Shown: positions 16,396 through 40,945 of the stretch, piece after piece
Layout of the letters: the number at the start of each line of letters is the position of its first letter
Position numbering within the stretch: position 1 is the stretch's first letter
From: a virus
Direction: 5' to 3' (one strand)
Virus record (IMG/VR): IMGVR_UViG_3300044712_001751
Coordinates: 1 to 47,152 of that record
DNA length: 47,152 nucleotides
Translations under genes and position numbers: made by a program
The notes under the pieces: model-generated
Told to the model about the DNA's origin: nothing
The model's input: the letters and a program-made list of their open reading frames with translations, nothing else
The model's database searches: none

Positions 16396-16779
16396 ATGTC
16401 ACAGGAAAGAAACAGCCCGGTCAGTTTCGAGGCCGGCGAGGACCTGGAGCAGTATCGCCGGGTCTGCCTGACGGGCGGCAAGGTCTACTACGCCGACGAC
16501 GCCGAGTACGGCATCGGCACGACGCTCAAGAAAGTGGCCGCCGGCAGCCATGTCTCGGTCCGGGATTACCGTCACGGCGGCTCCCACCGCATGGTGGCCT
16601 CGGGCGCGGTCCTGGTCAGCAAGCGCACCTACGCCGCCGCCGACGGCAAGGTGGCCGCAACCGGCACGCTGGTGATCGGGACGGCGGTCGAAGGGGCCAG
16701 CGGCAACGGCAGCGTGTTCGAGGTCTGGCCGCACCCCGGTCTGACGGTGCAGTCCTCCAGTTCGTCGAGCGCCGGCTGA
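16396..16779 (+). CDS. capsid decoration protein 1 (DUF2190-like), short Ser tail
   Basis: The product has 127 residues. The fold resembles the DUF2190/head-decoration family that follows the protease in many phages: YRRVCLTGGKVYYADDAEYG, then TLVIGTAVEGASG. It ends in a serine run and SSAG. It is about 80 percent identical to the next gene by eye, so the two arose by tandem duplication. Decoration proteins clamp the expanded capsid. Confidence 0.75.
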   Translation: MSQERNSPVSFEAGEDLEQYRRVCLTGGKVYYADDAEYGIGTTLKKVAAGSHVSVRDYRHGGSHRMVASGAVLVSKRTYAAADGKVAATGTLVIGTAVEGASGNGSVFEVWPHPGLTVQSSSSSSAG

Positions 16780-16800
16780 TAGCCCCGGGACGCCATGCCA

Positions 16801-16844
16801 TGTAGGGGCGGGTTTGAAACGCGCCCGTACGAAGGAGATCGATC
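16801..16844 (+). promoter_or_regulatory. palindromic GGGCGGGTTT module with RBS, before decoration gene 2
   Basis: TAGGGGCGGGTTTGAAAC and GCGCCCGTACGAAGGAGAT precede the ATG at 16845. It was either duplicated with the gene or inserted independently. Confidence 0.75.
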
Positions 16845-17306
16845 ATGTCACAGGAAAGAAACAGTCCGGCGAGTATCGAAGCCGGCGAGGCCCTGGAGCA
16901 ATACCGCCGGGTCTGTGTCACCGGCGGCAAGGCCTACTACGCCGACGACGCCGAGTACGGCATCGGCACGACGCTCAAGAAAGCGGCCGCCGGCAGTCAC
17001 GTCACGGTCCGGGATTATTGCCATGGGGGCACGCACCGCATGGTGGCCTCGGGCGCGGTCCTGGTCAGCAAGCGCACCTACGCCGCCGCCGACGGCAAGG
17101 TGGCCGCCACCGGCACGCTCGTGATCGGCACGGCCTGCGAGTCGGCCAGCGGCGACGGCAGCGTTCTGGAGGTCTACACTCACCCGGGCCTGACGCCCCA
17201 GTCGAGCAGCTCCTCATCGTCGTCTTCGTCGTCTTCGTCTTCGGAGTCGAGTTCGAGCAGCTCATCGAGTCTCTCCTCGTCCAGTTCCAGCAGTGCCGGC
17301 GCGTAG
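16845..17306 (+). CDS. capsid decoration protein 2, with a ~31-residue poly-Ser tail
   Basis: The 153-residue product is a paralogue of 16396-16779 through residue 118. From residue 120 it carries a tail of almost only Ser, broken by single Glu and Leu and ending SSSSAGA. Both TCN and AGC/AGT serine codons are used, so the tract is not a simple nucleotide repeat. It would display serine tails on the capsid surface if it decorates like its relatives. Confidence 0.78.
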   Translation: MSQERNSPASIEAGEALEQYRRVCVTGGKAYYADDAEYGIGTTLKKAAAGSHVTVRDYCHGGTHRMVASGAVLVSKRTYAAADGKVAATGTLVIGTACESASGDGSVLEVYTHPGLTPQSSSSSSSSSSSSSSESSSSSSSSLSSSSSSSAGA

Positions 17307-17369
17307 TCGCCGGGCAGGAGTGAAACGTAGTTGGCCGGCCCGCCGGCGGATTCCAAGGAGAATTATCCC

Positions 17370-18326
17370 ATGATTACTTACAGCACCTACGCGACGCCCC
17401 GGGGGGACCTGGGCGAAGCCTTCCACGAGTTCGAGCCCGAAGGCATGACGTTCATCGCCGATCAGATCCTCGTGCCCTACGGCGTCCAGAAAGAGGCCGC
17501 GACGATCACCGTGATCACGCGGGAGAACATGCGGAGCGACGACACGCTGCGGGCCGAGGGCGGCGGCTTCAACCGGATCGACATCACGGGCGAGGACCTG
17601 TCGTACCTGTGCAAGAATTACGGTCTGGAGATCCCGATCACCGACACCGAGCGGCGGCGGTATGTGGACGATTTCCAGGTCGAGCTCGAAAAGATCGCCG
17701 TCCTGCGCCTGCGGATGAAGATCGCCCGCGAACTGCGGGTCAAGGCCGCTATCTTCAACACCACGACCTGGACGGGCGCCCCGCTCTACACCGACACGAG
17801 CACGGACTGGGACAACATCGCCTCGGACATCATCGGCGACGTGGTTGCCGCCAAGGAGAAGGTCCGCGCGGGCACCGGTGTTAAGCCCAACGCCCTGATC
17901 GTCGGCGAGGGGGCGGTCAACAACATGATCAAGAACACGGCCATCAAGGCCCGCTTCCAGCAGAACGTCCTGGTGACCGTGGAGCTGCTCCGCACCCAGC
18001 TCGCCAGCCTGTTCGGCCTCTCGAAGCTGATCGTCGGCGATGCGGTCTACAACACGGCGGACGAGGGCCAGAGCTTCAGCGGCTCGGACATCTGGCCGGA
18101 CGATTACGCGATGGTCGCCCGGGTCGCCGAGGGCCCGGGCTCGCCGATCACCACGCCCTGCGTCGGCCGGACGCTCCGGTGGCGTGACATGGAGAGCAAC
18201 GTCGACGGCGCGCCCGAGCAGTACCGCGAGGAGCAGACGAAGTCGGAGATCTACCGGGTGGAAGACTATATCCAGGAGAAGATCATCGACCCCTATTTCG
18301 CCCACCTCATGCTGATCGATACGTGA
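17370..18326 (+). CDS. major capsid protein (GpE-like)
   Basis: At 318 residues it is close to lambda GpE (341). Recognisable are LVPYGVQKEAATITVITREN, YGLEIPITDTERRRYVDDFQ, WTGAPLYTDTSTDWDNIASD, LIVGEGAVNNMIKNT, and a C-terminal YFAHLMLIDT. It follows scaffold and decoration genes, as expected. The ATG at 17370 has AAGGAG nine bases upstream. It lacks a Ser tract. Confidence 0.9.
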   Translation: MITYSTYATPRGDLGEAFHEFEPEGMTFIADQILVPYGVQKEAATITVITRENMRSDDTLRAEGGGFNRIDITGEDLSYLCKNYGLEIPITDTERRRYVDDFQVELEKIAVLRLRMKIARELRVKAAIFNTTTWTGAPLYTDTSTDWDNIASDIIGDVVAAKEKVRAGTGVKPNALIVGEGAVNNMIKNTAIKARFQQNVLVTVELLRTQLASLFGLSKLIVGDAVYNTADEGQSFSGSDIWPDDYAMVARVAEGPGSPITTPCVGRTLRWRDMESNVDGAPEQYREEQTKSEIYRVEDYIQEKIIDPYFAHLMLIDT

Positions 18327-18355
18327 CCGGCGTGATGGCGTGATGTGTGCAACAC

Positions 18356-18378
18356 GGGGCGGGGCTCGTCCCCGCCCC
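18356..18378 (+). terminator. strong G/C hairpin after the capsid gene
   Basis: GGGGCGGGG (18356-18364) pairs with CCCCGCCCC (18370-18378) around a 5-nt loop. Only two T follow, so it may stabilise the abundant capsid mRNA rather than terminate. Confidence 0.6.
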
Positions 18379-18402
18379 TTCCGCACTTGTGGAGGTGATG
18401 AC

Positions 18403-18651
18403 GTGGCGAACGGCAAATGGTGGCTGACGTCGGCCCTGTCGATCGGGATGCTCCTGCTCGGCTGGGGCGTGGGCTGGGGCACGAATCTCTCGGCGGTCTC
18501 CCGGGCGGCCGAGGATATCAAGCAATTGCAGACCGACCAGAAGGCGGACCACGACTGCGTCGTGGAGGTGCGGACCCGCCTGCTCTCGATCGACGCCAGT
18601 CTCCTTGAGATCAAGACGATTTTGAAAGAGCATACGACCAACGAGAGGTGA
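18403..18651 (+). CDS. small membrane protein with one TM helix and a coiled coil, 82 aa
   Basis: GTG start with an excellent GGAGGTGAT upstream. Residues 6-27 (WLTSALSIGMLLLGWGVGWG) form one transmembrane segment. Residues 30-80 are a heptad-like helix (AAEDIKQLQTDQKA, LLSIDASLLEIKTILKE). The plan matches small phage holin-associated or XhlA-like proteins, but it lies inside the head-to-tail block, where lysis genes are unusual. Function unknown. Confidence 0.7.
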   Translation: MANGKWWLTSALSIGMLLLGWGVGWGTNLSAVSRAAEDIKQLQTDQKADHDCVVEVRTRLLSIDASLLEIKTILKEHTTNER

Positions 18652-18664
18652 TGACGGGGACACC

Positions 18665-18994
18665 ATGACCGATTTCGACACCACCATGCAGTTGGCGGCC
18701 GCAGCGATGCCGGAGTGCCTCGGCGCCGAGAGCGTGACCTACACGCCCCGGGGCGGCGCGGCCCGCGTCATCAGCGTCGTCGTGCAGCGGCTCGGAATTC
18801 ATCCGGATCTGCGGGTGCCCTTCGCCCAAATCAAAGCCCGGGAGCATGCGACCCTGGGCCTGGCCGCCGCGACCCTGGACACCGGCGGCGACACGATCGC
18901 CTGGCAGCCGAAGCCCGGCGGCACGGCGCGGACCGGCCGGATCACGTCGCTGATTTCCGCCAACGCCGGCTTCGTGACCGTGGAGGTGTGCTGA
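18665..18994 (+). CDS. head-tail connector (gpFII-like), 109 aa
   Basis: The beta-rich small protein (MTDFDTTMQLAAAAMPECLG..., VTVEVC) lies between capsid and gpZ-like genes, the usual place of the head-tail joining protein. It overlaps the next gene as TGATG. Assigned by position and size more than by sequence. Confidence 0.65.
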   Translation: MTDFDTTMQLAAAAMPECLGAESVTYTPRGGAARVISVVVQRLGIHPDLRVPFAQIKAREHATLGLAAATLDTGGDTIAWQPKPGGTARTGRITSLISANAGFVTVEVC

Positions 18995-19620
18995 TGGCGG
19001 ACGAGCTGCTCCAGGTCCATTACGACGATCGCGGCATCAAGGCCCTCGCAGGCCAGGCGAAAGGAATTCCGGCCATGCTGGCCCGCGTGGCGGCCCCGGC
19101 CCTCAATCGCACGGCCGCCTGGACCCGCACGCGGATGCGCCGCGAGGTCGCGAGCCAGTGCCGGCTCAAGGCCCGCCGGGCCGACTTGCTGCTGCGGACC
19201 GACAAGGCCAATCGCACCAAGCTCAACGCCCAGGTCGAGATCCAGAACCGCCGCGTGCCGATCGGCAAGTTCGCCCTGTCCCGCAGTCGCAAGGCCCGCG
19301 TCAGCGTCGCCTTCCCCTCGGGCGTCTCGCTCGGCTATCCGCGGCACTTCATCGCGACGATGCCCAGCGGGCACCGGGGCGTCTTCGTCCGCGCCCGCGT
19401 GGTCAAGCCGGGCGTGGCGGTCCGCCGCACGGAGCACGTCGGGCGCAATCGGTTCGGCTGGTACAAGTACACGAGCGAAAAGCCGATCTACGAGCAGCGG
19501 GAGCGGCTGGGCACCGTGATGCGGATGACCTTCCTCGTTCCCCTGCAGGTCGAGGGCGCCGCCCAACTGAACCGCGAGATCGAATCCAAAATGACCTGGT
19601 TCCTGCAGAGGGGGATCTGA
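18994..19620 (+). CDS. minor tail protein Z-like (GpZ)
   Basis: The 208-residue product resembles lambda GpZ: AAPALNRTAAWTRTRMRREV near the N-terminus, the RLKARRADLLLR segment, and a basic beta-rich C-terminal half. GpZ acts at tail termination and joining. The start overlaps the previous stop and its stop overlaps the next start (TGATG both times). Confidence 0.78.
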   Translation: MADELLQVHYDDRGIKALAGQAKGIPAMLARVAAPALNRTAAWTRTRMRREVASQCRLKARRADLLLRTDKANRTKLNAQVEIQNRRVPIGKFALSRSRKARVSVAFPSGVSLGYPRHFIATMPSGHRGVFVRARVVKPGVAVRRTEHVGRNRFGWYKYTSEKPIYEQRERLGTVMRMTFLVPLQVEGAAQLNREIESKMTWFLQRGI

Positions 19621-20093
19621 TGGCCCTCACGATCCGTGAAAAGATCAGTGCCCGCATCCTGGCGATCGTCAACACGGTCAGCGGGGTCACCGCGGTCCGC
19701 CCCAAGCGGGTCCACTGGGTGGACGAAGTCACGAAGAGCCTCACCGCGATCGTCCGCCAGACCGATCTGCGGGTGATCCACGAGGACGCCGACCCCACCG
19801 GCGGCACGCTCATCTGCGAGCAGGATTACGAGATCACCCTGGCCGTGGTCGAGTCGGACACCGCGACGACGACCTACGAGACCGAGGCCAATCGCGTGAT
19901 GGCGGACCTCATCGAGGCCTTGGCGGGGGATATCGACGCGTCGGACAACGCCGACTACGAGGGCCTGCGGATCGTCGGCACCAGCTCGGTCAGCGAGGAA
20001 ATTCGCCTGGCCCGCCAGATCGGCGGGGAGACATTGCTCATCACGGTCACGTTCACTACGGGCCGCACGAATATGGAAACGAACAAACGATAA
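19620..20093 (+). CDS. tail terminator / minor tail protein U-like, 157 aa
   Basis: It starts MALTIREKISARILAIVNTV, followed by VTAVRPKRVHW and a C-terminal beta region (LLITVTFTT). Size and position between gpZ and the tail tube match the GpU/tail-completion protein. It is tightly coupled to 18994-19620. Confidence 0.65.
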   Translation: MALTIREKISARILAIVNTVSGVTAVRPKRVHWVDEVTKSLTAIVRQTDLRVIHEDADPTGGTLICEQDYEITLAVVESDTATTTYETEANRVMADLIEALAGDIDASDNADYEGLRIVGTSSVSEEIRLARQIGGETLLITVTFTTGRTNMETNKR

Positions 20094-20135
20094 CCACGGT
20101 GGGCCGGGCCAGCGGCGCGCAGAAAGGAGAGCATC

Positions 20136-20555
20136 ATGCTCGGCAAGGGAATCACGCTCACCGGCAGCGTCACCGGCCTGATCGGCCACGCCCGGAATTT
20201 CACCTTCGGCGGCCCCACGGTCGACGCGATCGAAAACACCGACGCCGACACCGCGGGCTATCACCGCACGTTCGAGGCCGGCCTGATCAACTCGGAATCG
20301 GTGACGTTCAGCATGGTCTACAACGACACCTACGCCTGGGCGATCGTCAAGGCCGCGAAGAACCGCGTGACGGAATGCTGGAAGGCCCAGTTCGCCAGCG
20401 GCGCCCGCCGCTGGTTCTGGGGCTTCATCACGCGCTGCGGCCTGACCGGCCCGTACGACCAGCTCGTCGAATACGACCTGGAGATCAAAATCACCGGCGA
20501 GATCAAGAGCAGTTCCAGCAGCAGTTCCACGTCGAGCAGCAGCAGCTCCTCGTAA
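20136..20555 (+). CDS. major tail tube protein with poly-Ser C-terminus
   Basis: The 139-residue protein precedes the chaperone pair, as the tube gene (lambda V) does. It is beta-rich (NFTFGGPTVDAIENTDAD, GLINSESVTFSMVYNDTYAW, YDQLVEYDLEIKITGEI). Residues about 124-139 are Ser with one Thr, using AGC, AGT, TCC and TCG. As tube subunits stack in hundreds, every ring would expose serine tails. In many phages this position carries an Ig-like domain; here the Ser tail may replace it. RBS GAAAGGAGAG. Confidence 0.8.
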   Translation: MLGKGITLTGSVTGLIGHARNFTFGGPTVDAIENTDADTAGYHRTFEAGLINSESVTFSMVYNDTYAWAIVKAAKNRVTECWKAQFASGARRWFWGFITRCGLTGPYDQLVEYDLEIKITGEIKSSSSSSSTSSSSSSS

Positions 20556-20688
20556 GCGCGCGGCACAGCCGCAGGTGTGTCCGATAGGTCCTATCCGTCC
20601 CATCGGTCCTATCGGACATAGGACTCATAGGACAGATGGGACGAATGGGTTCCCCGCTTCGCGGGGACAGGTTGACGGAGAAACGACA
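20556..20688 (+). repeat. TCCTATCGG-type repeat block with hairpins, copy 1
   Basis: About 105-130 bp here are nearly the same as 29603-29734. Internal hairpins include TCCGATAGG/CCTATCGGA and CCCCGC-ttc-GCGGGG (from about 20652). It ends in GACGGAGAA, the ribosome-binding region of 20689. In both copies the block follows directly on a Ser-coding tail. Confidence 0.85.
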
Positions 20689-21338: not shown

Positions 21339-21377
21339 GGGCGGGTTTGGAACCCGCCCGTACGAGGGGCATCAATC
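21335..21377 (+). promoter_or_regulatory. palindromic GGGCGGGTTT module before the tape measure gene
   Basis: GGGGCGGGTTTGGAACCCGCC is followed by CGTACGAGGGGC and the ATG at 21378. The stop codon of the GT frame (21336-21338) lies in the first bases of the module. Confidence 0.75.
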
Positions 21378-23795
21378 ATGGCAGAAAGCTGGCAACGATC
21401 CGGAATCGAGTTCATCGTCAAGGACTCCACGCGCACCGGCGCCGCCGGTGTGGCCGGCTCGATGAAGGGGATCGAGAAAGAAGTCCTCGGCGTCCAGGGT
21501 CTGCTCAAGAAGGGTTTCGGCATCGCCCTCGGCGGCGTCGGCGTCTATGCCGCCGTCCGCGAGATCCAGTCGGCGGCCCGCTCGGTGGATGAGCTGGCCA
21601 AGGCCTCCGACCGGCTGGCCATGCCCACGGAGGACCTCTCCACGCTCCGCTACGCGGCCCAGGCGGCGGGCGTAGACGTGGACGCCTTCCAAGGGTCCCT
21701 GGAGCGTCTGAGCAACACGGTGGGCGAAGCGGCCCGCTCGGCGGGTCCCGCCCGCACGGCGCTCGCCGAACTGGGTCTCGATGCCCGCAAGCTCGCGGCC
21801 GCGACGCCCCAGCAGATGCTCTACGACCTGGCCGACGCCTTCGCGGCCGTGCCCAGCCAGGTCGACCGCGTGCGGCTGGCGCAGGATCTGTTCGGCCGGG
21901 GCAACCTCGAAATGATCAATCTCCTGCAGCGGGGCGCGGCCTCGATGCGGGACTCGCAGCAGGAGGCCGAGAAGCTCGGTCTGGCCATCAGCCGTCTGGA
22001 CGCGGCCAAGGTCGAGGAGGCCCGCGACGCCATGGCCCGGATCGCCGCGATCGCGGGCGGTGTGCTGAAGCGCGGCGTGATCGAGCTGGCCCCGTACTTC
22101 GAAGCGCTCGCCACCGGCCTGGTCGACGCCGCCACGGCGGGCGGCGGATTCGGCGAGATCGTGACCACGGCCATGGAGTCGGCGGCCATCGCCGCAGCGA
22201 AGGTGCTCGACATCCTCCTGACGATCGACAACCTCAAGCGTGTGGGCGGCGACGTGGCCTACACGCGGTCCTTCGAGAGAGAGATCGGCCAGCAGACGCG
22301 GGACGTCTACGAAGTCCAGATGCAGCGGGAAGGCAAGAACCCCTGGCTGGCCCCGCTCTGGAAGCGGCGTGCGACGGCCTCTTTCCCGGACCGGTATGAC
22401 GCCATCGAAAAGCAGATCCGCCAGATGTACGCCCCCGCCTTCGATCCCACCCAAGCCAATCAGGCGGCCGCGCCGCAGAACGTCAAGAACGTGGAGGACT
22501 TCTATGCCGGGGTCCGCAAGCGTGCCGCCGAAGCGAATCAACGGATCGCGGCCCAGCGGTTCAGTCTGGATTATCTGCAGGTCCCCAGCCCTCTGGGTCT
22601 GCCGGGTCCCTTCGTTCCTCGCAGGGCGCTGCCCCGCCCCGTCGGTCCCGATATCGAGCAGGTGAAGGAGATCAGTCGCGTCGAGGACCTGATCGCGGAC
22701 ATGGAGCGTCAGGCGCAGATCCTCCAGCAGACGCAGGCGGGCGTCTACCGGCCGAAGGAGCGGCTGGCCTTCGCCGAGCAGGCGGCGACCGCCTTCGGCG
22801 GCGAAGGCGGCAAGGAGTACGAGGACGCGGTCCGCCGCTACGGCGCGGCCCTCGATGCCGTGCGCTACCAGGAGAAGGCCGCCGAAGCGCGGGAGGCCCG
22901 CACGGAGGTCGAGGCGATGGACTCGGCCCTCGACCGCGAGACGGAGATCATCGGCCGCCTGAGCGACAGCCACGACCGCGCGGGCCGCATGGTGGATTAC
23001 GAGCGTAAGGTCCGCCAGGCCTACGCCGACGATCTCGACGCCCAGGGCCAAAAGATAGACGAGTACCGCCAGAAGCTTGAAGACCTCCAGAAGGCCGAGT
23101 TCGTCAATCGCCAGATGGATGATCTGGCCTCGACGCTGACCGATGTGGCCATGAACTTCGAGAGCGCCGCGGACGCTGCCGATCAATTCCTCAAGAGCCT
23201 GGCCCGCGGCACGATCAACGAGTTCATCATGCAGCCGGCGACCGATGCTCTCGGCGTCGGACTTAAGTCCGTCCTCGGGATCACCCCTGCCGCGCCCAAG
23301 GTCAACGCGGGCACTCCGGGCGCCGGCGGCGTGCACCAGTTCCACGGCGGCGGCCTGGTCGGCACCGACGGCGTCGCGGTCGCGGTGCACCATGACGGCC
23401 GCAGCGTCGGCGCGGCGAGTGCCACGCGGGAGCTGCCCCGGGGGCTCGTGGAGGCCGCGATGCAGAATCTGCGGCCCGATGAGCGGCTGATCGTCGCCCA
23501 GGTGGGCGAGCGGATCCAGAGCCGCGCCGAGGTCCGCCGCGCCGATCGGCTGGCATCGGTCCTGAGTTATCACGAGGGCGGCACGGTCGGCGGCGCATCG
23601 GCCGAGAGCGTCCCCGCCTCCGGCGGCTCCGTGCGTCCGAACGTCACGGTGAACTTCTCGAACCAGACGGGCACGGCGATGGCCGAGCCCGAGGTCTCGG
23701 CCGAGTTCTCGCTGGACGAGTACATCGTCAGCGTCGTCCTGCGCGACCAGCAGACGGGCGGCCCGATCCGCGACCGGTTCGGAGGGCGGGGCTGA
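21378..23795 (+). CDS. tail tape measure protein
   Basis: With 805 residues it is the second-largest tail protein, following the chaperones. It is Ala-rich and helical, with typical tape-measure phrases: RSVDELAKASDRLAMPTEDL, STLRYAAQAAGVDVDAF, FGRGNLEMINLLQRG, and a late FHGGGLVGTDG. Its length sets tail length; by the lambda rule (853 residues, about 150 nm) the tail would be roughly 120-140 nm. It overlaps the next gene as TGATG. Confidence 0.93.
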   Translation: MAESWQRSGIEFIVKDSTRTGAAGVAGSMKGIEKEVLGVQGLLKKGFGIALGGVGVYAAVREIQSAARSVDELAKASDRLAMPTEDLSTLRYAAQAAGVDVDAFQGSLERLSNTVGEAARSAGPARTALAELGLDARKLAAATPQQMLYDLADAFAAVPSQVDRVRLAQDLFGRGNLEMINLLQRGAASMRDSQQEAEKLGLAISRLDAAKVEEARDAMARIAAIAGGVLKRGVIELAPYFEALATGLVDAATAGGGFGEIVTTAMESAAIAAAKVLDILLTIDNLKRVGGDVAYTRSFEREIGQQTRDVYEVQMQREGKNPWLAPLWKRRATASFPDRYDAIEKQIRQMYAPAFDPTQANQAAAPQNVKNVEDFYAGVRKRAAEANQRIAAQRFSLDYLQVPSPLGLPGPFVPRRALPRPVGPDIEQVKEISRVEDLIADMERQAQILQQTQAGVYRPKERLAFAEQAATAFGGEGGKEYEDAVRRYGAALDAVRYQEKAAEAREARTEVEAMDSALDRETEIIGRLSDSHDRAGRMVDYERKVRQAYADDLDAQGQKIDEYRQKLEDLQKAEFVNRQMDDLASTLTDVAMNFESAADAADQFLKSLARGTINEFIMQPATDALGVGLKSVLGITPAAPKVNAGTPGAGGVHQFHGGGLVGTDGVAVAVHHDGRSVGAASATRELPRGLVEAAMQNLRPDERLIVAQVGERIQSRAEVRRADRLASVLSYHEGGTVGGASAESVPASGGSVRPNVTVNFSNQTGTAMAEPEVSAEFSLDEYIVSVVLRDQQTGGPIRDRFGGRG

Positions 23796-25003
23796 TGTAC
23801 AATTTCGCCGGCGATGCCAACTGCGTAGCACGATACCGCTTTCAGGCCGACGCTCTGACGGCGGACTCCAAGGGCACGAACGAACCGCTGCTCAGCCCTA
23901 CGGAAGATCAGACGCCGACCGCCAACCCGTTCGATTACCGGGAGTTCTCCGCGTCGGCCCACTTCGACCGGAGCCTTTCCCAGTTCTTCAGCCTTGCCGA
24001 TGCCTATCTGGACGCGGGCTTTCCCGGCAAGAGTGGCACGACGAACAAGACCCTCTCCATCACCTGCTGGATCAAGCTCGAGTCCCTGAACGCCAGTTGC
24101 ACCTTCGTCAATAAGGCGGGCGGCTACTCCAGTTGTTTCTGGTTGCGGGTCAACGACGCCACCCTGCAGTGGCTGATCGGCGACGGTGCGATGGGGTGGG
24201 AGACGTATTCTTTCGGCACCGTCTTGCAAACGGACCGCTGGTATCACGTGGGAGTCACCTACCGGGACGACACCAAGGCCTGGCGGATTCGCGTCTGGGA
24301 CGACACCGCCCAGGCCCTGCTGGCGGCGGACGCCACCGGAACGGGGACCTACAACATCGGCACGCCGGCGAATACGCCGTTTTACATCGGCTCGGCCGCC
24401 GGCTTTGCCTCCCACTGCTTCGACGGCTGGATCGACGAGGTGGTGATCTTCAACGATATCCTCACTCCCACTGAAATCGACACCATCCGCGCCGGCGGCT
24501 CTTCCTCGTCCTCCTCGTCCTCGTCGAGCTTGTCGTCGTCGTCGAGCGCGTCGCTCTCCTCTTCGTCCTCGGACTCCTCCAGCAGCAGCTTCGTTCCGCT
24601 GGCATGGCCCACGCTGAGTAAGGGCGTCGAGTTCGACACGCAGGAGCTGGCCGGGGCCCATGACGTCACCATACCCATGGGCAATGGCCAGGTGAAGATC
24701 CGCCCGCGCTACACGCGCAGGCCGCACCGCTGGCGGATTCGCTATCGGTTGCTGACGCTCGATGATCGGATGGCCTTGGAGCGGTTCTATCACATCGACT
24801 GCCAGCGGAGCAAATATACGTTCGCGTTCGTCGAGCGGGGCATGAATCAGACCTGGCTCGTCCGTTGGGATCCGGATGAGCCGCCCCGGTTCGCGCATGA
24901 GGAGCGTTGCCCGGGCAAGTTCCGTCTGGACGCTGTCCTGCTCGAGGACTGCGCCGGCTCCTACGGCAGCGGCCAGTATGGGGCACAGTATTACGATTCG
25001 TAG
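23795..25003 (+). CDS. distal tail protein with LamG (concanavalin-like) domain, Ser linker and tail-tip domain, copy 1
   Basis: Residues 1-230 form a LamG-like sandwich: CVARYRFQADALTADSKGTN, FDRSLSQFFSLADAYLDAGF, SITCWIKLESL, RWYHVGVTYRDDTKAWRIRVW and CFDGWIDEVVIFNDILTPTE. Residues 236-265 are almost all Ser. Residues 266-402 (WPTLSKGVEFDTQELAG...) form a second domain like those of tail-tip proteins in the M/L region. LamG modules commonly bind glycans, so this may contact the host surface. Tandem paralogue of 25012-26232. Confidence 0.82.
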   Translation: MYNFAGDANCVARYRFQADALTADSKGTNEPLLSPTEDQTPTANPFDYREFSASAHFDRSLSQFFSLADAYLDAGFPGKSGTTNKTLSITCWIKLESLNASCTFVNKAGGYSSCFWLRVNDATLQWLIGDGAMGWETYSFGTVLQTDRWYHVGVTYRDDTKAWRIRVWDDTAQALLAADATGTGTYNIGTPANTPFYIGSAAGFASHCFDGWIDEVVIFNDILTPTEIDTIRAGGSSSSSSSSSSLSSSSSASLSSSSSDSSSSSFVPLAWPTLSKGVEFDTQELAGAHDVTIPMGNGQVKIRPRYTRRPHRWRIRYRLLTLDDRMALERFYHIDCQRSKYTFAFVERGMNQTWLVRWDPDEPPRFAHEERCPGKFRLDAVLLEDCAGSYGSGQYGAQYYDS

Positions 25004-25011
25004 GGACGTGC

Positions 25012-26232
25012 ATGGCGAACAATTTTTCCAGCGATGCCAACTGCGTTGCCTTATGGCGCTTCGAGAACGGGGCCCTGACCACCGACTCCAAGGGCTCGAA
25101 CACCCTGACGGCCTCGGCCTCTGCACCGACGGCCGACACGACCAACAAGAAGGAGGGTGGTGCGAGTGCGGACTTTGAGAAGGATAATTCGCAATACTAC
25201 TCCATCGCCGACGCCTCCCTGTCCGCCGGTTTCCCCTGCAAGAATGGCACGACGAATCGGACCTTTAGTGTGTGCGTGTGGGCGAAATTCGAGACTACCA
25301 GCTCGAACCACACATTCATCTTCAAGAACGGCTATTGGCTCCGCCTCAGTTCCACGAAGGTGCAAGTCTGTATCAATAACGGGGGCTGGCAGGTATTTGA
25401 ACACACTGCGGTTCTGGTAACCGGCCGATGGTATCACATCGGTATGACGTACGAGGATACGGGCAAGACGTACCGGATTCGCGTTTGGGATGACACAGCG
25501 GGAGCCCTTGCGGCGGCGGACAAGACCGGAACTGGCACGGGGAGCATTGTCGTTGACACCACGGTTGTTACTATCGGCGGAAGTACGGGTGGGGGATGGC
25601 TATTCGACGGGCTCATGGACGAGATGGTAGTCTGTAAAGATGTCCTGACCGCCGACGAGATCGATCAGATTCGCGCCGGGACGTACGGCGCTTCGTCCAG
25701 CAGCAACTCCTCGTCGTCCTCTTCCTCGATCAGTTTCAGCAGTTCCTCGTCCTCCTTCTCTTCTTCGTCGCTGTCTTCGTCCTCGCAATCCTCATCGAGC
25801 AGCTATTCGTTCAGTTCATCGAGCTGCAGCAGCGTGGCCCCGCTGGTCTTTCCCACACTGAGTAAGGGCGTAGACCTGTCGATCGGCGAGGACATTGCCG
25901 ACGCCGGTCAGCTCGCCTCGGATCCGAATCAGGGCCGCCGGCTGGTCCGTGCGATCGCGTACAAGGCGAGTCATCGCGTGCGACTGAGCGTCAGCTACAT
26001 GACCCAGGCGGACCGCCGCACGCTGGCCCGGTTCTACCTGACCACGGCGGCCGGTCCCGTGCAGGTCTGGGAGTGGACTCATCCCAAGAGCGGCCAGACG
26101 TATCTCCTGAGCTTCGACCCCGAAACCCCGCCGATCTGGTCGCGCGAGCCCCGCCAGCCGGACAAGCATCACGCGGAGATGACGCTGATCGAGCACCTCG
26201 CCGACGGCTATTTGACAGGAGTCTATTCATGA
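25012..26232 (+). CDS. distal tail protein with LamG domain, Ser linker and tail-tip domain, copy 2
   Basis: The same three-part plan as its neighbour: LamG (NNFSSDANCVALWRFENGAL, FSVCVWAKFE, RWYHIGMTYEDTGKTYRIRV, LFDGLMDEMVVCKDVLTADE), a 47-residue Ser linker (228-274) with Asn, Ile, Phe and Tyr interruptions, and a C-terminal domain (FPTLSKGVDLSIGEDIADAG...). Divergence between the copies is moderate, so the duplication is old or the copies are specialised. It overlaps the L-like gene as ATGA. Confidence 0.82.
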   Translation: MANNFSSDANCVALWRFENGALTTDSKGSNTLTASASAPTADTTNKKEGGASADFEKDNSQYYSIADASLSAGFPCKNGTTNRTFSVCVWAKFETTSSNHTFIFKNGYWLRLSSTKVQVCINNGGWQVFEHTAVLVTGRWYHIGMTYEDTGKTYRIRVWDDTAGALAAADKTGTGTGSIVVDTTVVTIGGSTGGGWLFDGLMDEMVVCKDVLTADEIDQIRAGTYGASSSSNSSSSSSSISFSSSSSSFSSSSLSSSSQSSSSSYSFSSSSCSSVAPLVFPTLSKGVDLSIGEDIADAGQLASDPNQGRRLVRAIAYKASHRVRLSVSYMTQADRRTLARFYLTTAAGPVQVWEWTHPKSGQTYLLSFDPETPPIWSREPRQPDKHHAEMTLIEHLADGYLTGVYS

Positions 26233-26983: not shown

Positions 26984-27002
26984 TTCTTCCGGAGGCCTGC
27001 TG

Positions 27003-29423
27003 ATGCCGGCGCAACAACGATCCATCTGGACGAGTGTCGCGATGATCGCCCTGGCGGTCGCCGCCACGATCGTGGCCGGCCCTGCCGGGCTGGCCCTGTC
27101 GGCCGGCTGGGCCACGGCGTTCACGGCCGTCGTGACGATCGCCGGCGGCATGATCATCTCGCGCGAGCTGGCGGCCAGTCAGCCCAAGGGCCCCGAAGGC
27201 TCCCAGGCCTACGCCTGGAACCCGCAGACCCTCCAGCGGGCCGGCGGCTCGATGCCGAAATCCTTCGGGCGCAACCGGCTGCACGGCAATATCATCGCCT
27301 GCTACACCGAGGAGGTCAACACGGTCAGCGGGGCCCAGGCGGCGGTCACCAAGAGCGAGCAGCGTCTGAATCTGCTGATCGACTACGGCGAGGGCCCGGT
27401 CGAGGGGCTGGTCGCGGATTCCGTCTTGATCAACGGCCAGCCCGCGACCAGTTGGACCAACGTGGCGACGGAGTTTCGCCGCGGCCTGCTGACGCAGACC
27501 GCCTGCAGCAAGTTCGCCGGCGAGATGCCCGTCGAGATCCCCGTCGGGATGCCGGTGACGCTGGCCGACGGCGCCAAAACATACACCACGCCGGACAAGC
27601 ATTTCGACGTGCTGGAGGTCGTACTGGAGTTCCCGCAGGGGATCTTCGATCGCCATCAGGACGGCAATGTGGACACCTACGCCGTCGGCGTCAAAATCGA
27701 GCTGGCGGTCGCCGGCACGGGGGCCTGGGGCACGCTGTTCGCCGGCAACGTCTGGGGCTACAGCTACTACGCCGTGCGCCGCACCTTCCGCAGCGACACC
27801 GCCTACACCGGCGGTGCGCCCGTGACGATCGCGCGGGGCAGCCAGTACGACGTCCGCGTCACCAAGACCACCGGCGACTACTCCGGCGAAGAGGCGACCC
27901 GCCACGGCGCGGACCTGAAGATCTACAGCGTCCGCGAGATCCTCAGTATCGGCTTCACCTTTCCCGGCCGGGCCGTCCTGCAGGTCAGTGCCCTGGCCAC
28001 GAAGGAACTGAGCGGCTCGCTCGATGTCTCGGTCGAGCTGGATGGCGCGATCGTCAATACCGACATGACCGGCGGCACGACGCTGGAGTTCAGCGACAAC
28101 CCGGCCCACGTGCTGTTCGACGTACTCACCATGCCGGTGATCTCGGGCGACGGCAGCGGCACGGCCTACGCGATCGAGGAATACCGGGGCCCCTGTCTGC
28201 CGACAGACCCGATCCTGGGCACGTTCGCCACGCTGGAGTCCTACGCCGACGCTCTGGTCGCCGACGGGGCGGGCGGCACGGAAAAGCGGCTCACGTTCGA
28301 CGGCTTCTTCGACACCGACAGCTCGGTCGGCGACGCGGTGACGGAGATCTGCGCCGTGAGCCGCTGTCATCTGCTCTGGCGGGGCAATCAACCCTATGTC
28401 CAGATCGATACGAGCCGCACGCCCGTGGCCCTCCTGTGCGACGGCAACGGCCGCCGCAACGGCCGCGAGACCCTGATCCCCGCCGACGAGCGGGCCTCGG
28501 AGATCGAGGTCCACTATCGCGACGCCCTGGCCGACTACGACCGCACGCCGATCCTCGTGCGGAACCCGGCGGTCCAGAACAATCACAAGGTCACCCTGCA
28601 GGTCAACGGCGTCACGAAGCAGTCCCGGGCCGTGCGGATCATGAATTTCGAGCTGAAGCGCAATCAGTACGTCACGCGGCAATTGCGCCGCACGATGCAG
28701 TTCGACGGCTGGATCCTGGAAGTGGGCGACCCGGTCTACGCCCAGCGGCCGGGCCGGTCCTGGGGCGGCCGGCTCCAGCAGGTCAGCGGCCGGCGGCTGC
28801 GGATCGATCGGGATGTGCGGCGCTCGCAGGCGGACCGCATCATCGTCCAGGCCTACAACCCGGCGACGCAGTCCTGGGCCCTGGAGAGCCACACCGTCGC
28901 CTGGATCGACGGCCGGACCCTCCAGATCGGCGAAGACTGGTCGACGGTCACGCCGGCGGCGGGCAATGTGTACCTCTTCGGTCCGGACGCCATCAAGGAT
29001 GACCAGTTCGAGATCGTGAACCTCCGCCGCAGCGGCGATCACGAGTTCGTGGTGGACCTGGTGACGTACGATTCGCGGCTCTTCGATGCCGACGACACCG
29101 CCCCGGTGATCGTCTCGGACGTGGGCGTCAGCCGGGCCCGGCGGGGCACGACGAGCGTGATTGCCCCCGCGACGCAGGCCCAGGTCGAGAACGCCAACCC
29201 GCCGGGCGTCGAGCAGATCACGAGCACGCCCCTGGACGGGGTGGTCTCGCTCAAGAACGGCACGCGGATCTATGTGGACGCCAACAACGTCACCCGCCTC
29301 CAGCGGTACGAGGCGGGCGTCTGGAAGGACATGCAGACCTGGGGCTCGGCGTCCTCCTCCTCGAGTTCCTCGGTCTCCTCCAGCAGCAGTTCGAGCAGTT
29401 CCTCATCGAGTGCCGGAGCATAG
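27003..29423 (+). CDS. tail tip protein J-like (central tail tip/receptor region), poly-Ser C-terminus
   Basis: 806 residues. Residues 8-55 hold two hydrophobic segments like those of gpI, possibly a fused I part. Then follow J-family phrases: SMPKSFGRNRLHGNIIACYT, LLIDYGEGPVEGLVADSVLI, IYSVREILSIGFTFPGRAVL (ALxVTA-type motif), LLWRGNQPYVQID, and VRIMNFELKRNQYVTRQLRR. The end (LKNGTRIYVDANNVTRLQRY...) is followed by a serine tail of about 22 residues ending SSSAGA. At 806 residues it is shorter than lambda J (1132), lacking much of the C-terminal receptor part. Confidence 0.88.
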   Translation: MPAQQRSIWTSVAMIALAVAATIVAGPAGLALSAGWATAFTAVVTIAGGMIISRELAASQPKGPEGSQAYAWNPQTLQRAGGSMPKSFGRNRLHGNIIACYTEEVNTVSGAQAAVTKSEQRLNLLIDYGEGPVEGLVADSVLINGQPATSWTNVATEFRRGLLTQTACSKFAGEMPVEIPVGMPVTLADGAKTYTTPDKHFDVLEVVLEFPQGIFDRHQDGNVDTYAVGVKIELAVAGTGAWGTLFAGNVWGYSYYAVRRTFRSDTAYTGGAPVTIARGSQYDVRVTKTTGDYSGEEATRHGADLKIYSVREILSIGFTFPGRAVLQVSALATKELSGSLDVSVELDGAIVNTDMTGGTTLEFSDNPAHVLFDVLTMPVISGDGSGTAYAIEEYRGPCLPTDPILGTFATLESYADALVADGAGGTEKRLTFDGFFDTDSSVGDAVTEICAVSRCHLLWRGNQPYVQIDTSRTPVALLCDGNGRRNGRETLIPADERASEIEVHYRDALADYDRTPILVRNPAVQNNHKVTLQVNGVTKQSRAVRIMNFELKRNQYVTRQLRRTMQFDGWILEVGDPVYAQRPGRSWGGRLQQVSGRRLRIDRDVRRSQADRIIVQAYNPATQSWALESHTVAWIDGRTLQIGEDWSTVTPAAGNVYLFGPDAIKDDQFEIVNLRRSGDHEFVVDLVTYDSRLFDADDTAPVIVSDVGVSRARRGTTSVIAPATQAQVENANPPGVEQITSTPLDGVVSLKNGTRIYVDANNVTRLQRYEAGVWKDMQTWGSASSSSSSSVSSSSSSSSSSSSAGA

Positions 29424-29425
29424 TC

Positions 29426-29602
29426 ATGGCGGACATCACGCAACTCAAGACCAACGTGCGGATTCGCGTCGACGGGACCAACGTCGTGCATATCGAGCGA
29501 CTGGAGGCGGGCCAATGGATCAGCGGCACGCGCTTCTTCTCGGCCAGCTCCTCCAGCAGCAGCTCGTCGAGTTTCTCGACGTCGAGCAGCAGCTCCTCCT
29601 GA
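29426..29602 (+). CDS. 58-aa protein: duplicate of the J-like C-terminal domain plus Ser tail
   Basis: This small gene starts three bases after the J stop codon. Its residues 6-40 (LKTNVRIRVDGTNVVHIERL, then EAGQW) align with the J end (LKNGTRIYVDANNVTRLQRY, then EAGVW), and both lead into SASSSSS. The last 19 residues are Ser with one Phe and one Thr. It is therefore a detached duplicate of the J terminal module. It may attach to the tail tip or act as a decoy; function unknown. Confidence 0.75.
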   Translation: MADITQLKTNVRIRVDGTNVVHIERLEAGQWISGTRFFSASSSSSSSSSFSTSSSSSS

Positions 29603-29734
29603 GCACGCGCAAAGCCGCCGGCGTGTCCGATAGGTCCTATCCGTCTCATCGGTCCTATCGGGCATGGGACACATAGGACGGATGGGACGAAGGGGTTCCC
29701 CGCTGCGCGGGGACAGATTAACGGAGAAAACGAC
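29603..29734 (+). repeat. TCCTATCGG-type repeat block with hairpins, copy 2
   Basis: Nearly identical to 20556-20688, including the CCCCGC/GCGGGG hairpin (from about 29696) and the AACGGAGAAAACGAC leading to the ATG at 29735. Confidence 0.85.
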
Positions 29735-30349
29735 ATGGAAACACCCATCGATTACGCCGACCTGCTCGCCCGGGGCAATCGCCGCATGACGGAGCACGAT
29801 CTCCGCCTGCTGGTCGAGACCTGCGCCGCGGTCGGTGCCAAGACCATCGTGGAGATCGGCTCCAAAGACGGCTGCAGCACGCTGGCCATGGGCCTGTGGG
29901 CAAAAGAGCACGGCGCGCAGCTCTTCTGCGTGGAGCCGGTCCCGACCGGTCGCTGGCTGCAGAATGTCCACGACCTCGCCGTGGCGAGCGTCATCACGCC
30001 GCTGCGGTATTTCTCGCCCTGGGTCCCGCTGGCCGAGGTTCCCTGCCCGATCGACGTACTGCTGATCGACGGCGACCACCGCACGAGCCGGGCCATCGCG
30101 GATTACATCTTCTGGGGCCGGTTCGTCCGCCAGGGCGGCCGGATCGCCTTCCACGACATCGACGGCGGCAAGGGCGTCGCGCCGGACATCCGCAGGGCGG
30201 TCGAGATCTGCGTCCGGGACGACAATCTCAATAGTCCCCAGGGCCCGGATCGCCTGATCCATCAGGTCGCCCGGACCCCGCCGTCCCGCGACCGCGGCCT
30301 GGTCGTCTTCGAGAAGGGCACTCCCGCCGAGCCGCTGGAGGTCCCATGA
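29735..30349 (+). CDS. class I SAM-dependent methyltransferase (CmcI/Methyltransf_24-like)
   Basis: 204 residues with a Rossmann layout: motif I as TIVEIGSKDGCSTLAMGLWA, then FCVEPVP, the acidic strand VLLIDGDHRTSRAIADY and IAFHDIDGG. The IDGDH motif is typical of the cephalosporin hydroxylase-like/Methyltransf_24 group, often found in sugar and O-antigen clusters. It probably O-methylates a sugar or glycan made by the neighbouring glycosyltransferases. It overlaps the next gene as ATGA. Confidence 0.8.
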   Translation: METPIDYADLLARGNRRMTEHDLRLLVETCAAVGAKTIVEIGSKDGCSTLAMGLWAKEHGAQLFCVEPVPTGRWLQNVHDLAVASVITPLRYFSPWVPLAEVPCPIDVLLIDGDHRTSRAIADYIFWGRFVRQGGRIAFHDIDGGKGVAPDIRRAVEICVRDDNLNSPQGPDRLIHQVARTPPSRDRGLVVFEKGTPAEPLEVP

Positions 30350-31104
30350 CCCCCATCGGTCTTATCCGTCCCCTGGTCCTGCCTGCCTGGTTCGGCGAGT
30401 TCGGCTGGGAGGTGATGAGCTGGGCCCCCTGGTGCCGGGCGCGATCGCGCGAGGCAGGCGGCGCGGTGATCACCAGCTTCGGCGCCAGCCGCGCCCTCTA
30501 CGCGGACTTCGCGACACAGTTCCGCGACCACGGCGGCACACAGCGGAGCCTGGACTATCCGAAAGGCTACGCCCTGTACCGCAGCGACGGCCCCGGCTTC
30601 GAGCACGTGCGCTACGGCAACCCCGATGACGGGGAGCCGTTCGACGTCCTGATCCACGCCCGGGGCATCCAGCGTAAATCCGCCATCAACTACTGCCGTT
30701 GGTGCGAGGTCCTCGCCGCCCTGCAGGGCCTGAAGGTGGGATTCATCGGCACGTCGGCCGACCTGTTCGAACGGGTCACGGGTCACGAGTCACGGGCCAC
30801 GTGCCGCGACCTGCGCGGCCTGTCCCTCGATCGCCTGATGGCCACGATCGCCGCCTCGGACATGGTGGTCGGCTGCTCGAGCGGCACGATGCACCTGGCG
30901 TCCGCCTGCGGCTGCGACCTGGTCGCTTGGGGCGACACGAAGACCCGCTACGGCGAGACGCTGGAGCGGCGCTACAAAGAAACCTGGAACCCGCATCGCG
31001 TCCGGGTCGAGTGGCTCGACGCCGACGACTGGCAGCCAAACCCGGCCCGCGTGGTCCAGGCCATCGAACATCTGCTGGCTTTAGGCCAGTCACCCGTCCC
31101 ATAG
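30346..31104 (+). CDS. glycosyltransferase, GT9 (heptosyltransferase)-like, 252 aa
   Basis: The C-terminal half carries the GT9 nucleotide-sugar site: SLDRLMATIAASDMVVGCSS, then GTMHLASACGCDLVAWG, as in WaaC/WaaF-type heptosyltransferases. The N-terminal half has WFGEFGWEVMSWAPW in place of the usual glycine loop. Residues around 143-151 (RVTGHESRAT) are translated from an in-frame GTCACG repeat. At 252 residues it is shorter than GT9 enzymes (about 350), so it may be degenerate or a compact variant. Confidence 0.75.
   Translation: MTPIGLIRPLVLPAWFGEFGWEVMSWAPWCRARSREAGGAVITSFGASRALYADFATQFRDHGGTQRSLDYPKGYALYRSDGPGFEHVRYGNPDDGEPFDVLIHARGIQRKSAINYCRWCEVLAALQGLKVGFIGTSADLFERVTGHESRATCRDLRGLSLDRLMATIAASDMVVGCSSGTMHLASACGCDLVAWGDTKTRYGETLERRYKETWNPHRVRVEWLDADDWQPNPARVVQAIEHLLALGQSPVP
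30773..30803 (+). repeat. GTCACG heptamer array inside a glycosyltransferase gene
   Basis: Four 7-bp units lie in frame inside 30346-31104, between the two half-domains where a loop can be tolerated. Confidence 0.85.
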
Positions 31105-31145
31105 GTCCCATCGGTCCTATAGGTCCCACGAAAGGAAAAACGACA

Positions 31146-33053
31146 ATGCAGTTCACCGACACCATCGACCCCAGCGCCAAGCTGCGGGTGATCTTTCGCA
31201 ACCATCAATGCCTGCTGGGCGATCGCCTGGCCATGACGAGCTTCGTCCGGGACGTGAAGGCCACCTACCCGCAGTGGGAGATCTTCGTCGACGTCGAGAA
31301 GCCCGACGTCTGGCGGCACAATCCGCACATCGCGGGCCTGCTGCTGCCGGGCGATCCCGAGCCCGAGAAGATCGATTTCGCCTGGAACGTGGGCCCGGGC
31401 AAAGCCACGCAGGGCAGCAAGGCCAACGGCGTGCACCTGATCCGCGCCTTCGCCTGGGGTTGGAGCCGGATGACCGGCCTGCCCGTCAGGGACGGCCCCT
31501 GGCGGCCGGATCTGCATCTGTCCGAGGAGGAACTCGCCTACCATCCGGTCGCGGGCGACTACTGGGTCTTCAATCCCGACACGAACAATATGGGCTCCAA
31601 ACGCTGGCCGACCGAGAGCTGGCAGGAACTGATCCGCTCGATTCCGCACGTGCGGTTCGTGCAGATCGGCCTGGCGAAGGACTGTTATGCCGATTTCGCC
31701 GCCGAGCCGAACGTGATCAGCCTGGTCGGCCAGACCACGGAGCGGCAGCTCTTCGCTTTGGTCCGCCACGCCGCCGGCTGTGTGGGCCTGCTCTCGTCGA
31801 TCGTGCACATCGCCGCCGCGATGCAGCGGCCCTGCGTGGTCCTGGCCGGCGGCCGCGAGCCGGACACCTTCGCGCGTTATCCCGGGCACTACTACCTCAG
31901 CCGGGTCGGCATGCTCGACTGCTGCCGGGATCTGGCGTGCTGGAAGAACTCGATCACGGCCTGCAAGGACCAGGTCGAAACACCGGCCTACCCAGTCAGT
32001 CGCTGCATGACGTTGATCACCCCGGCCGACGTCGCCCGCGGCATCGAGCTCTATTCGTCCCATCGGTCCCCTGTGTCCTATCCGTCCCGGGCTCCGCTCC
32101 TTCGCATCGTGACGAACGGCAAGTGTCTCGGCGGCGCCGAGCGATCGGTGGTGAGCATCGCCCGCATGTTCCGCGCCCGGGATTGGCAGGTCGAGATCGC
32201 GACCCGTCAGCCGATGTGCGAGGCCCTGCGTCGCGCCCTCGAGGGCATCGCGATCGAGACGGATCGGGTCAGCAGTCCGTGCGACTGCCTGCTCTGGTAC
32301 GCCAGCGACCAGGTCTACGACGCCCACCTGCCCGAGTTCGACCCGCTCCGCGCGGCCGCGGCGAGCGCAAAGCGGCGGGTCATGGCCCTGACGTACAAGC
32401 TCGGCAAGGTCCCGGACCTCGACTGGTGCCACGACTGGGACCAGTATCTTTTCTTATCCTCCGCCATGGCGGAGGCCCTGTCCCACAAGTCCCATCGGTC
32501 CCATCCGTCCCAAGTCCTGGCCCCCGCGGTCGACCTGGCTCCCTTCCTGACCGTGGAGCGTGACTATCGCACAGGCCTGTCCGTCGTGCGTCACAGCAGC
32601 CAGGGCGACAATAAGTGGCCGGTCACGACGCAGGATCTCGTCCATGCCTGCCCGAACGCGGCCTTCTTCTTCATGCCCGCGCCGAGCTGGCTGGAGCCTT
32701 GCGATCGCGTGGGTCGCCTTCCGTATGGGGAAATGCCCGTGCCCGATTTTCTCGCGAAGGGCAACCTCTTCCTATATCTCCTCCCGCCGGGCTACACGGA
32801 TCAGGGCCCGCGGGTGATCGTGGAGGCCATGGCAGCCGGTCTGCCGGTGATCACGGAGCGTCGCGACGGCGCCGCCGATCGCGTGACGGACGAAACAGGC
32901 TGGTTTGTCGAATCGTGGGAAGAGGCGGCCGGGATCATCAACGGCGTCGCGCCGGACCTCCTGGCGGCCAAGGGTCGCGCTGCCCGGGAGCGGGCCCGCA
33001 CGGTCTTCGACCCCTGGAACTGGTACCGAGCCATCAGCGGCGAAACGGCATAG
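31146..33053 (+). CDS. bifunctional glycosyltransferase: GT9-like + GT4-like domains
   Basis: 635 residues. Residues 1-310 resemble GT9: VIFRNHQCLLGDRLAMTSFV, WVFNPDTNNMGSKRWPTESW, FVQIGL, TTERQLFALVRHAAGCVG, LLSSIVHIAAAMQRPCVVLAGG. Residues 325-635 resemble GT4: RIVTNGKCLGGAERSVVSIA, then PPGYTDQGPRVIVEAMAAGL and PVITERRDGAADRVTDETGW. Two short stretches (SSHRSPVSYPS and SHKSHRSHPS) are translated from the TCCCATCGG repeat family. It probably adds two sugars in series. Confidence 0.83.
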   Translation: MQFTDTIDPSAKLRVIFRNHQCLLGDRLAMTSFVRDVKATYPQWEIFVDVEKPDVWRHNPHIAGLLLPGDPEPEKIDFAWNVGPGKATQGSKANGVHLIRAFAWGWSRMTGLPVRDGPWRPDLHLSEEELAYHPVAGDYWVFNPDTNNMGSKRWPTESWQELIRSIPHVRFVQIGLAKDCYADFAAEPNVISLVGQTTERQLFALVRHAAGCVGLLSSIVHIAAAMQRPCVVLAGGREPDTFARYPGHYYLSRVGMLDCCRDLACWKNSITACKDQVETPAYPVSRCMTLITPADVARGIELYSSHRSPVSYPSRAPLLRIVTNGKCLGGAERSVVSIARMFRARDWQVEIATRQPMCEALRRALEGIAIETDRVSSPCDCLLWYASDQVYDAHLPEFDPLRAAAASAKRRVMALTYKLGKVPDLDWCHDWDQYLFLSSAMAEALSHKSHRSHPSQVLAPAVDLAPFLTVERDYRTGLSVVRHSSQGDNKWPVTTQDLVHACPNAAFFFMPAPSWLEPCDRVGRLPYGEMPVPDFLAKGNLFLYLLPPGYTDQGPRVIVEAMAAGLPVITERRDGAADRVTDETGWFVESWEEAAGIINGVAPDLLAAKGRAARERARTVFDPWNWYRAISGETA

Positions 33054-38599: not shown

Positions 38600-38647
38600 G
38601 GCATCGGGCCGGTGTGCCTGGTGCTGTGCCGTAGATTGGAGGTCTAC

Positions 38648-40914: not shown

Positions 40915-40945
40915 CCTTCGTGGTTCAAAAAGGATTTATCCCAAG

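Follow-up and report, generated by a model that had tools for sequence, protein, structure and literature searches.

The window analysed here is the whole 47,152-nt stretch of the IMG/VR virus record IMGVR_UViG_3300044712_001751. It carries a 127-bp terminal repeat, the record looks complete, and a partial Pfam survey finds an integrase among its genes. The capsid, J-like tail tip and tail tube identities are backed by PHROGs and those of two LamG proteins by Pfam; all features described below lie on the plus strand. Dense serine tracts, defined as at least 9 serines in 12 residues and sought in all six frames, form the C-termini of decoration protein 2 (tract 17202-17294, gene 16845-17306, PHROG 673), of the tail tube protein (tract 20508-20552, gene 20136-20555, Pfam and PHROGs) and of the J-like protein (tract 29346-29414, gene 27003-29423, PHROG 31, E 1.3e-86). 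In LamG protein 1 (gene 23795-25003) and LamG protein 2 (gene 25012-26232) the tracts are internal, 3' of the LamG domain, at 24500-24589 and 25690-25833. The sixth belongs to a 58-residue protein (29426-29602), which duplicates the C-terminus of the J-like protein and has its own serine tail; its serine-free part aligns to the J tail with a score of 71, whereas 300 shuffles gave at most 39, bearing out the duplication proposed in a sequence-only reading of this DNA. No further tract reaches the threshold in the six frames of the window. That reading had counted seven structural proteins with serine tracts: six stand, whereas decoration protein 1 (gene 16396-16779), whose translation ends in a short run of six serines (approximately 16753-16770), falls below the threshold. 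Its homologues in related viruses carry 10 to 58 serines.

Relatives of the window (n = 20) were retrieved with the capsid protein (MCP). All 20 bear serine tracts, mostly on the same proteins, and tract length varies freely among them. A Planctomycetota MAG holds the closest relative among named genomes, and searches with three query sequences of 50,697 records from isolated phages returned no homologue. Host polyserine was rejected as the source of the tracts, as none was found in about 242 kb of a single host-candidate MAG.

Directly after the tail genes lies a cassette of three genes (29735-33053), which Pfam confirms as the methyltransferase and glycosyltransferase genes proposed earlier. 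It encodes a Methyltransf_24 methyltransferase (29735-30349, PF13578, E 1.5e-14), which is kept in relatives, a short GT9-like glycosyltransferase, GT9a (30346-31104, PF01075 at 23.1 bits and alignment), and a fusion (31146-33053) of a TibC-like GT9 domain, GT9b (approximately 31146-32075), with a GT4-like domain, delineated by Pfam, homologue alignment and a structure model. Regular loss of the transferases from relatives that keep their tracts, which would have spoken against a link, was not seen: the methyltransferase, the GT9b-GT4 fusion and the tracts occur together in 11 of the 11 related contigs that reach the cassette region, and GT9a is kept in 10 of them. Most relatives add an epimerase and another putative transferase. 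Further upstream, at 8379-9569, an HldE-like heptose-1-phosphate adenylyltransferase domain is fused to an NT5C-like HAD phosphatase domain (TIGR02199, E 3.6e-46; PF06941; PDB matches). With 156.6 bits against a curated cut-off of 181.5, it is by sequence a close relative of the TIGR02199 family. The HldE domain claimed earlier is present, but its standing as a core component is weakened: of 50 records of GT9b phages, only 6 had it. On that ground it was rejected as an essential partner of GT9b, and we count its rarity against the glycosylation scheme proposed below.

GT9b was compared with known heptosyltransferases through 51 diverse homologues, only one of which has a PHROG match, a weak one. 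D26 and K152 are invariant in all 51 and align with D13 and K192 of WaaC, the enzyme to which the catalytic base of TibC (D110) was mapped; in TibC, the lysine contacting the beta-phosphate is K230 (PMC4358343). Four cysteines, C259, C265, C273 and C287 (31920-32006), are likewise invariant. A model of the full fusion built from six sequences was set aside (pLDDT 59.7) in favour of an AF2 model of the GT9b core built from the 51 sequences (pLDDT 91.8, pTM 0.90). In a PDB fold comparison, TibC gave the lowest rmsd among the top matches (TM 0.69, 4.7-4.8 Å over nearly the whole domain). In E. coli, TibC attaches heptose to an autotransporter, on serines and not on threonines, and the iron finger of this enzyme has been described as unique among transferases (PMC4358343). 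C342-W, C358 and C370-TRLI of TibC align with C265-W266, C273 and C287-MxLI of the phage enzyme, so that the CW and C-x-x-L-I contexts are shared; the fourth cysteine is shifted, the spacing being C-x5-C-x7-C-x13-C in the window and C-x2-C-x15-C-x11-C in TibC. The cysteines match the TibC iron finger in sequence, and metal binding is predicted. A longer profile (A7) recovered TibC, which a profile restricted to the cysteine region had missed. The Aah/TibC model TIGR04414 matches 9 of the 51 homologues, all below cut-off (best E 1.2e-8), and the window GT9b scores 15.2 bits against a curated cut-off of 200. Together, the fold, the cysteines and these sub-cut-off matches support the earlier claim that the GT9 domain of the fusion has its precedent in the BAHT family.

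GT9b also resembles WaaC and WaaF. LPS heptosyltransferases are the best sequence matches of GT9b (WaaF, 3.5e-10), although the best NCBIfam model of that group reaches 32.5 bits, short of its cut-off of 170.2. GT9b shares with them the fold, the catalytic Asp and Lys and a His in the sugar site, and differs by its four-cysteine finger, its virion-gene neighbourhood and its association with serine tracts. From TibC and AAH, with which it has in common the GT9-type GT-B fold, the catalytic Asp, the phosphate Lys, the finger cysteines and a serine-rich acceptor often encoded next door, GT9b departs in other respects. It lacks the N-terminal beta-barrel and opens directly with a WaaC-like, Rossmann-type N-lobe; the sugar-contacting W305 of TibC aligns with a His, as in the LPS enzymes; it is phage-encoded and frequently joined to GT4 or other domains. 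The invariant phage Arg nearest to R286, a sugar-site residue of TibC, sits two positions off in the alignment. The TibC acceptor is a beta-helix loop, unlike the polyserine of virion proteins proposed as acceptor for the phage enzyme. This difference, the His and the missing barrel are counted against a TibC-like function.

A survey of the co-occurrence of serine tracts and transferases extended the association to unrelated phages. Finger-type GT9 domains are encoded in 80 viral loci. In 13 of 32 GT9b clusters outside the clade of the window, a strict polyserine gene lies no more than 5 kb away; the figure for random viral loci is 4 of 137 (p = 6e-8), the GC match being imperfect, with two control sets (0.60 and 0.37) that bracket the cases (0.50). 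The other 19 clusters have no strict tract within 5 kb, though many loci are small parts of large genomes. Lenient counts (47 of 70 GT9b loci, 9 of 80 controls) include redundant loci and antisense frames, and the strict cluster counts are therefore preferred. The serine gene lies at most 600 bp from GT9b in 18 of the 34 positive loci, and one locus (L055) holds a serine-rich protein, GT9b and an HldE domain within 3.7 kb. The tracts near GT9b are of serine, not threonine, and among the other residues tested, Gly, Thr, Pro and Gln included, none was comparably enriched. Finger-less GT9 phages, which represent few lineages, have tracts in 0 of 16 cases. Within seven large phages, 3 of 20 distant 20-kb regions contain tracts, a comparison biased by the choice of these phages, which were picked for having tracts close to GT9b. 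Tracts and GT9b could also each be a habit of the phages of a single host group, independently of the other, which we count against a functional pairing.

What maintains the tracts bears on their function. The earlier claim that TCN and AGC/AGT codons alternate in them, and so argue against slippage, fails on both points: the codons are mixed without alternating, TCN and AGY switching about as often as chance predicts or less often (LamG2, p = 0.006), and two relatives with identical capsid DNA (L018 and L019) differ in their decoration tracts by three 39-nt units, revealing tandem growth. Such growth, seen within one pair, would suit tracts that are a functionless by-product of DNA repeat expansion. 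We regard this as extremely improbable. Serine codon usage in the tracts resembles that of the other serines of the genome; with the remaining two frames reading as mixtures (A/P/R and Q/L/V/F), it is serine in the tract frame that is kept, despite codon turnover. The same proteins bear tracts in relatives down to 42% capsid identity, and tracts are rare in random viral loci, the single one inspected being antisense to a portal gene. Selection on serine itself, as first proposed, is upheld by the mixed codons at background usage and the single conserved frame. The tracts could instead be unmodified flexible spacers or a hydrophilic brush, with the transferases acting elsewhere; their freely varying length and the two internal ones between a LamG and a C-terminal domain fit this, and in Saccharophagus over a quarter of the carbohydrate depolymerases have their domains set apart by polyserine linkers (PMC2386152). 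Most tracts, however, are C-terminal with nothing to link, Gly, Thr, Pro or Gln would make equally good spacers yet are not enriched in this way near GT9b, and the association with one enzyme type would be left unexplained, which makes this reading unlikely.

The transferases, for their part, could remodel LPS or another envelope glycan of the host, blocking superinfection or altering receptors, with the tracts unrelated. The WaaF-like sequence points that way, a lysogen could benefit given the integrase, and phage Kapi1 is reported to modify the O-antigen of its own lysogen (PMC8787464). This reading does not predict the co-occurrence with serine tracts in unrelated phages or the adjacency of the genes, and it sits poorly with the TibC-type finger, the position of the cassette after the tail genes and the tract-free finger-less phages; we hold it to be improbable, if worth keeping in mind. 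Glycosylation of DNA bases or another nucleic acid, a common role of phage transferases (general knowledge, summarised in PMC12619734), is very improbable: a GT9/TibC-type fold with its catalytic residues conserved suggests chemistry on ADP-heptose, the partial Pfam survey of the window recognised C5 and D12 DNA methylases and no base-hypermodification genes, and polyserine would have no reason.

Tracts, conservation, co-occurrence, fold, catalytic residues and finger were computed directly, and from them we infer that the phage probably O-glycosylates its serine tails by means of the TibC-like enzyme. The acceptors would be the tracts that end the decoration, tail tube and tail tip proteins and those inside the two LamG proteins. 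We further infer in what order the reactions run, which sugar is used and what the phage gains. Working in the host cytosol, ahead of assembly or in its course, the GT9 domain of the fusion would add the first sugar to serine, with heptose the likeliest sugar and ADP-heptose its donor; the GT4 domain of the fusion and GT9a may then extend or branch the sugar, the methyltransferase may cap it, and the HldE-like protein may top up the ADP-heptose pool. The benefit would be a hydrophilic sugar coat over head and tail; mimicry, adsorption or stability had first been suggested as its purpose. For the broader proposition, that a large undescribed family of phage O-glycosyltransferases with a TibC-like GT9 core and an iron finger heptosylates polyserine tags on the virions of many unrelated uncultured phages, we judge the balance slightly favourable.

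Virion glycosylation is known in mycobacteriophages; the proposed combination of a TibC-like enzyme and a polyserine acceptor would be new. In Che8, Corndog and Myrna (Freeman et al. 2023, as summarised in PMC12619734 and PMC12363180), transferases encoded by the phage modify the capsid and tail tube proteins, whose C-termini carry the glycans. The window likewise encodes glycosyltransferases and has, as known from its sequence, serine tails on decoration and tail tube C-termini. The parallel is one of description, and those summaries mention neither polyserine tails nor a GT9/TibC-like enzyme. Polyserine phage proteins or phage virion heptosyltransferases were not found in the open-access literature. 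Long serine runs maintained at the protein level are also found in Saccharophagus and Microbulbifer hydrolases (PMC2386152), where they link enzyme domains, whereas the phage tracts are mostly C-terminal virion tails tied to a transferase.

The pairing of GT9b and polyserine across unrelated phages suggests a widespread, undescribed route to sugar-coated virus particles. For phages that yielded no cultured relative in the search above, the scheme suggests which enzyme, which acceptor tag and which donor route could serve to glycosylate the virion. It would account for the polyserine tails, tie phage glycobiology to the heptosyltransferases of autotransporters and offer for testing a transferase whose polyserine acceptor is simple. 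If the broader proposition is true, polyserine in a phage virion could be read as a mark of glycosylation. The scheme would also give a sequence rule by which to predict sugar-coated virions.

A recount over all six frames of the window placed serine tracts in decoration protein 2, the tail tube protein, both LamG proteins and J, as well as in a 58-aa protein whose gene follows J. The sequence-only reading had listed seven such structural proteins; decoration protein 1, with just six serines, drops out, while the 58-aa protein is indeed a tract-bearing copy of the J C-terminus. The alternation of TCN and AGC/AGT codons that it had also described is absent, the codons being mixed at background usage. 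In a pair of relatives with identical capsid DNA, tract length differs by three 39-nt repeat units. Selection for serine is supported by reading frame, codon mixture and conservation; alternation forms no part of its basis.

A capsid search of viral contigs returned 20 loci (42-78% identity), all of which bear polyserine tracts; these lie on the decoration protein, the tail tube protein, LamG/tail proteins and proteins of the J region. When these tract-bearing relatives were checked for missing transferases, as the sequence-only reading had proposed, a cassette of methyltransferase (29735-30349 in the window), a short GT9-like gene (GT9a, 30346-31104) and a fusion of a TibC-like GT9 domain (GT9b) to a GT4 domain (31146-33053) was found downstream of J in every contig long enough, the glycosyltransferases sharing 46-65% identity. 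In most relatives the cassette also includes two genes absent from the window, one for an NAD-dependent epimerase and one for another putative transferase, which has no Pfam match. In one relative (L017:7856-8995, compared with L016:8804-9481), a non-Ser domain of about 250 residues, possibly a beta-helix as judged by eye, takes the place of the Ser tail of the decoration protein, which suggests that this C-terminus serves as an exchangeable display site; the tail tube protein of this relative retains its tract. Two relatives (L039:8080-11541 and L035:10850-11935) encode, directly after the cassette, giant proteins in which Ser/Ser-Gln or Ser-Glu repeats spanning hundreds of residues are joined to a domain akin to window gene 18665-18994.

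The terminase, portal, S49 protease, capsid, tail tube, L-like and J-like genes mark the 47,152-base window record, which has a 127-base terminal repeat, as a lambda-like siphovirus by gene content. The ~220-bp spacing between a tRNA-Met gene (38323-38394) and the adjoining tyrosine integrase gene (38612-39685) suggests that the phage is temperate, with the tRNA gene possibly serving as its attachment site. Short intergenic tandem 9-mers of the CACGAAG family (15 matches vs 0.01 expected; 36-62, 310-334, 36122-36146, 40898-40922, 43766-43791, 45517-45544, 46841-46856, 47061-47087, and similar), some inside or close to the terminal repeat, and further 7-10-nt arrays (ACACGGATT, GTCCCATAG, CACGGGT) look like interspersed short tandem repeats, which the host may share; the pattern recurs in one relative (L023/L039). 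Among named bacterial genomes, the capsid matched only one contig, of 39.6 kb, from a Phycisphaerae MAG; it carries Ser tracts, the methyltransferase and the GT9b-GT4 fusion and lacks GT9a. Its binning hints weakly at a Phycisphaerae host. No polyserine tract occurs in ~242 kb of this MAG outside the virus contig, which suggests that the trait belongs to the virus itself.

TibC heptosylates the autotransporter TibA on serines, not threonines, and requires its four-cysteine iron finger for activity (PMC4358343). A GT9b-core profile search of viral contigs yielded 80 loci, many of them in phages that have no relation to the window and are 20-550 kb in size; in the 51 that were aligned, D26 and K152 (WaaC-type Asp and Lys) and four cysteines are invariant. 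Phage C265-W266, C273 and C287-M-x-L-I align under TibC C342-W, C358 and C370-T-R-L-I. The AF2 model of GT9b is confident, and the solved structures that it resembles most are WaaF, a Veillonella GT9 and TibC; of the top matches, TibC has the smallest rmsd (4.7-4.8 Å, TM 0.69). GT9b has the finger and fold of the bacterial autotransporter heptosyltransferases (BAHT); it lacks TibC's beta-barrel and has His at the position of W305. The NCBIfam Aah/TibC model matches 9 of the 51 homologues (best 1.2e-8), and the window protein falls far under its curated cut-off, which rules it out as a BAHT by the curated definition.

Outside the window's clade, ORFs in which 9 or more of 12 residues are Ser were present at 47/70 GT9b loci vs 9/80 random viral loci (7.5 vs 1.2 such ORFs per 100 kb), and across these loci no other residue, threonine in particular, was comparably enriched near GT9b. 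A stricter test, again outside the clade (12 Ser in 15, 5 kb either side, one representative per 60% identity cluster), left 13 of 32 GT9b clusters positive vs 2/80 and 2/57 random viral loci (p=6e-8). Phage GT9s without this finger, from few lineages, had no Ser tracts (0/16). In 18 of 34 distinct positive loci, no more than 600 bp separate GT9b from the nearest Ser-tract gene, and locus L055 encodes a Ser-rich protein together with GT9b and an HldE domain within 3.7 kb. No random control locus contained GT9b; the one control tract that was inspected (L208) runs antisense to a portal gene. One phage whose GT9b has no polyserine nearby encodes, close to it, collagen-like proteins with Gly-Pro-Thr repeats (L054:12853-16451), a possible candidate for another acceptor.

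In the best-supported scheme, the Ser tails of virion proteins would be the acceptors, the GT9b domain would put the first sugar on serine, extension of the glycan would fall to the fused GT4 domain and GT9a, and the methyltransferase would cap it, with donor supply aided by the HldE-like protein where present. The sugar is likely heptose, a prediction drawn from the GT9 fold and its catalytic residues together with the HldE domain found in the window and in 6/50 other GT9b records. In the window (8379-9569), this ADP-heptose-type adenylyltransferase domain is fused to an NT5C-like HAD phosphatase domain, possibly covering two steps of one sugar-nucleotide route.

Polyserine linkers are known from bacterial hydrolases (PMC2386152). 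In the open-access literature we found no published case of polyserine tails on virion proteins linked to a TibC-like enzyme of a phage, and three queries gave no homologue among 50,697 phage records; PHROGs covers 1 of the 51 homologues. One BFVD entry from an uncultured phage carries the name Aah/TibC, and single annotations therefore exist. In mycobacteriophages, phage-encoded transferases glycosylate the virion at capsid and tail tube C-termini (Freeman et al. 2023, as relayed in PMC12619734 and PMC12363180). Phage-encoded virion glycosylation at C-termini is already known, and the new part would be the proposed polyserine acceptor together with a TibC-like phage enzyme.
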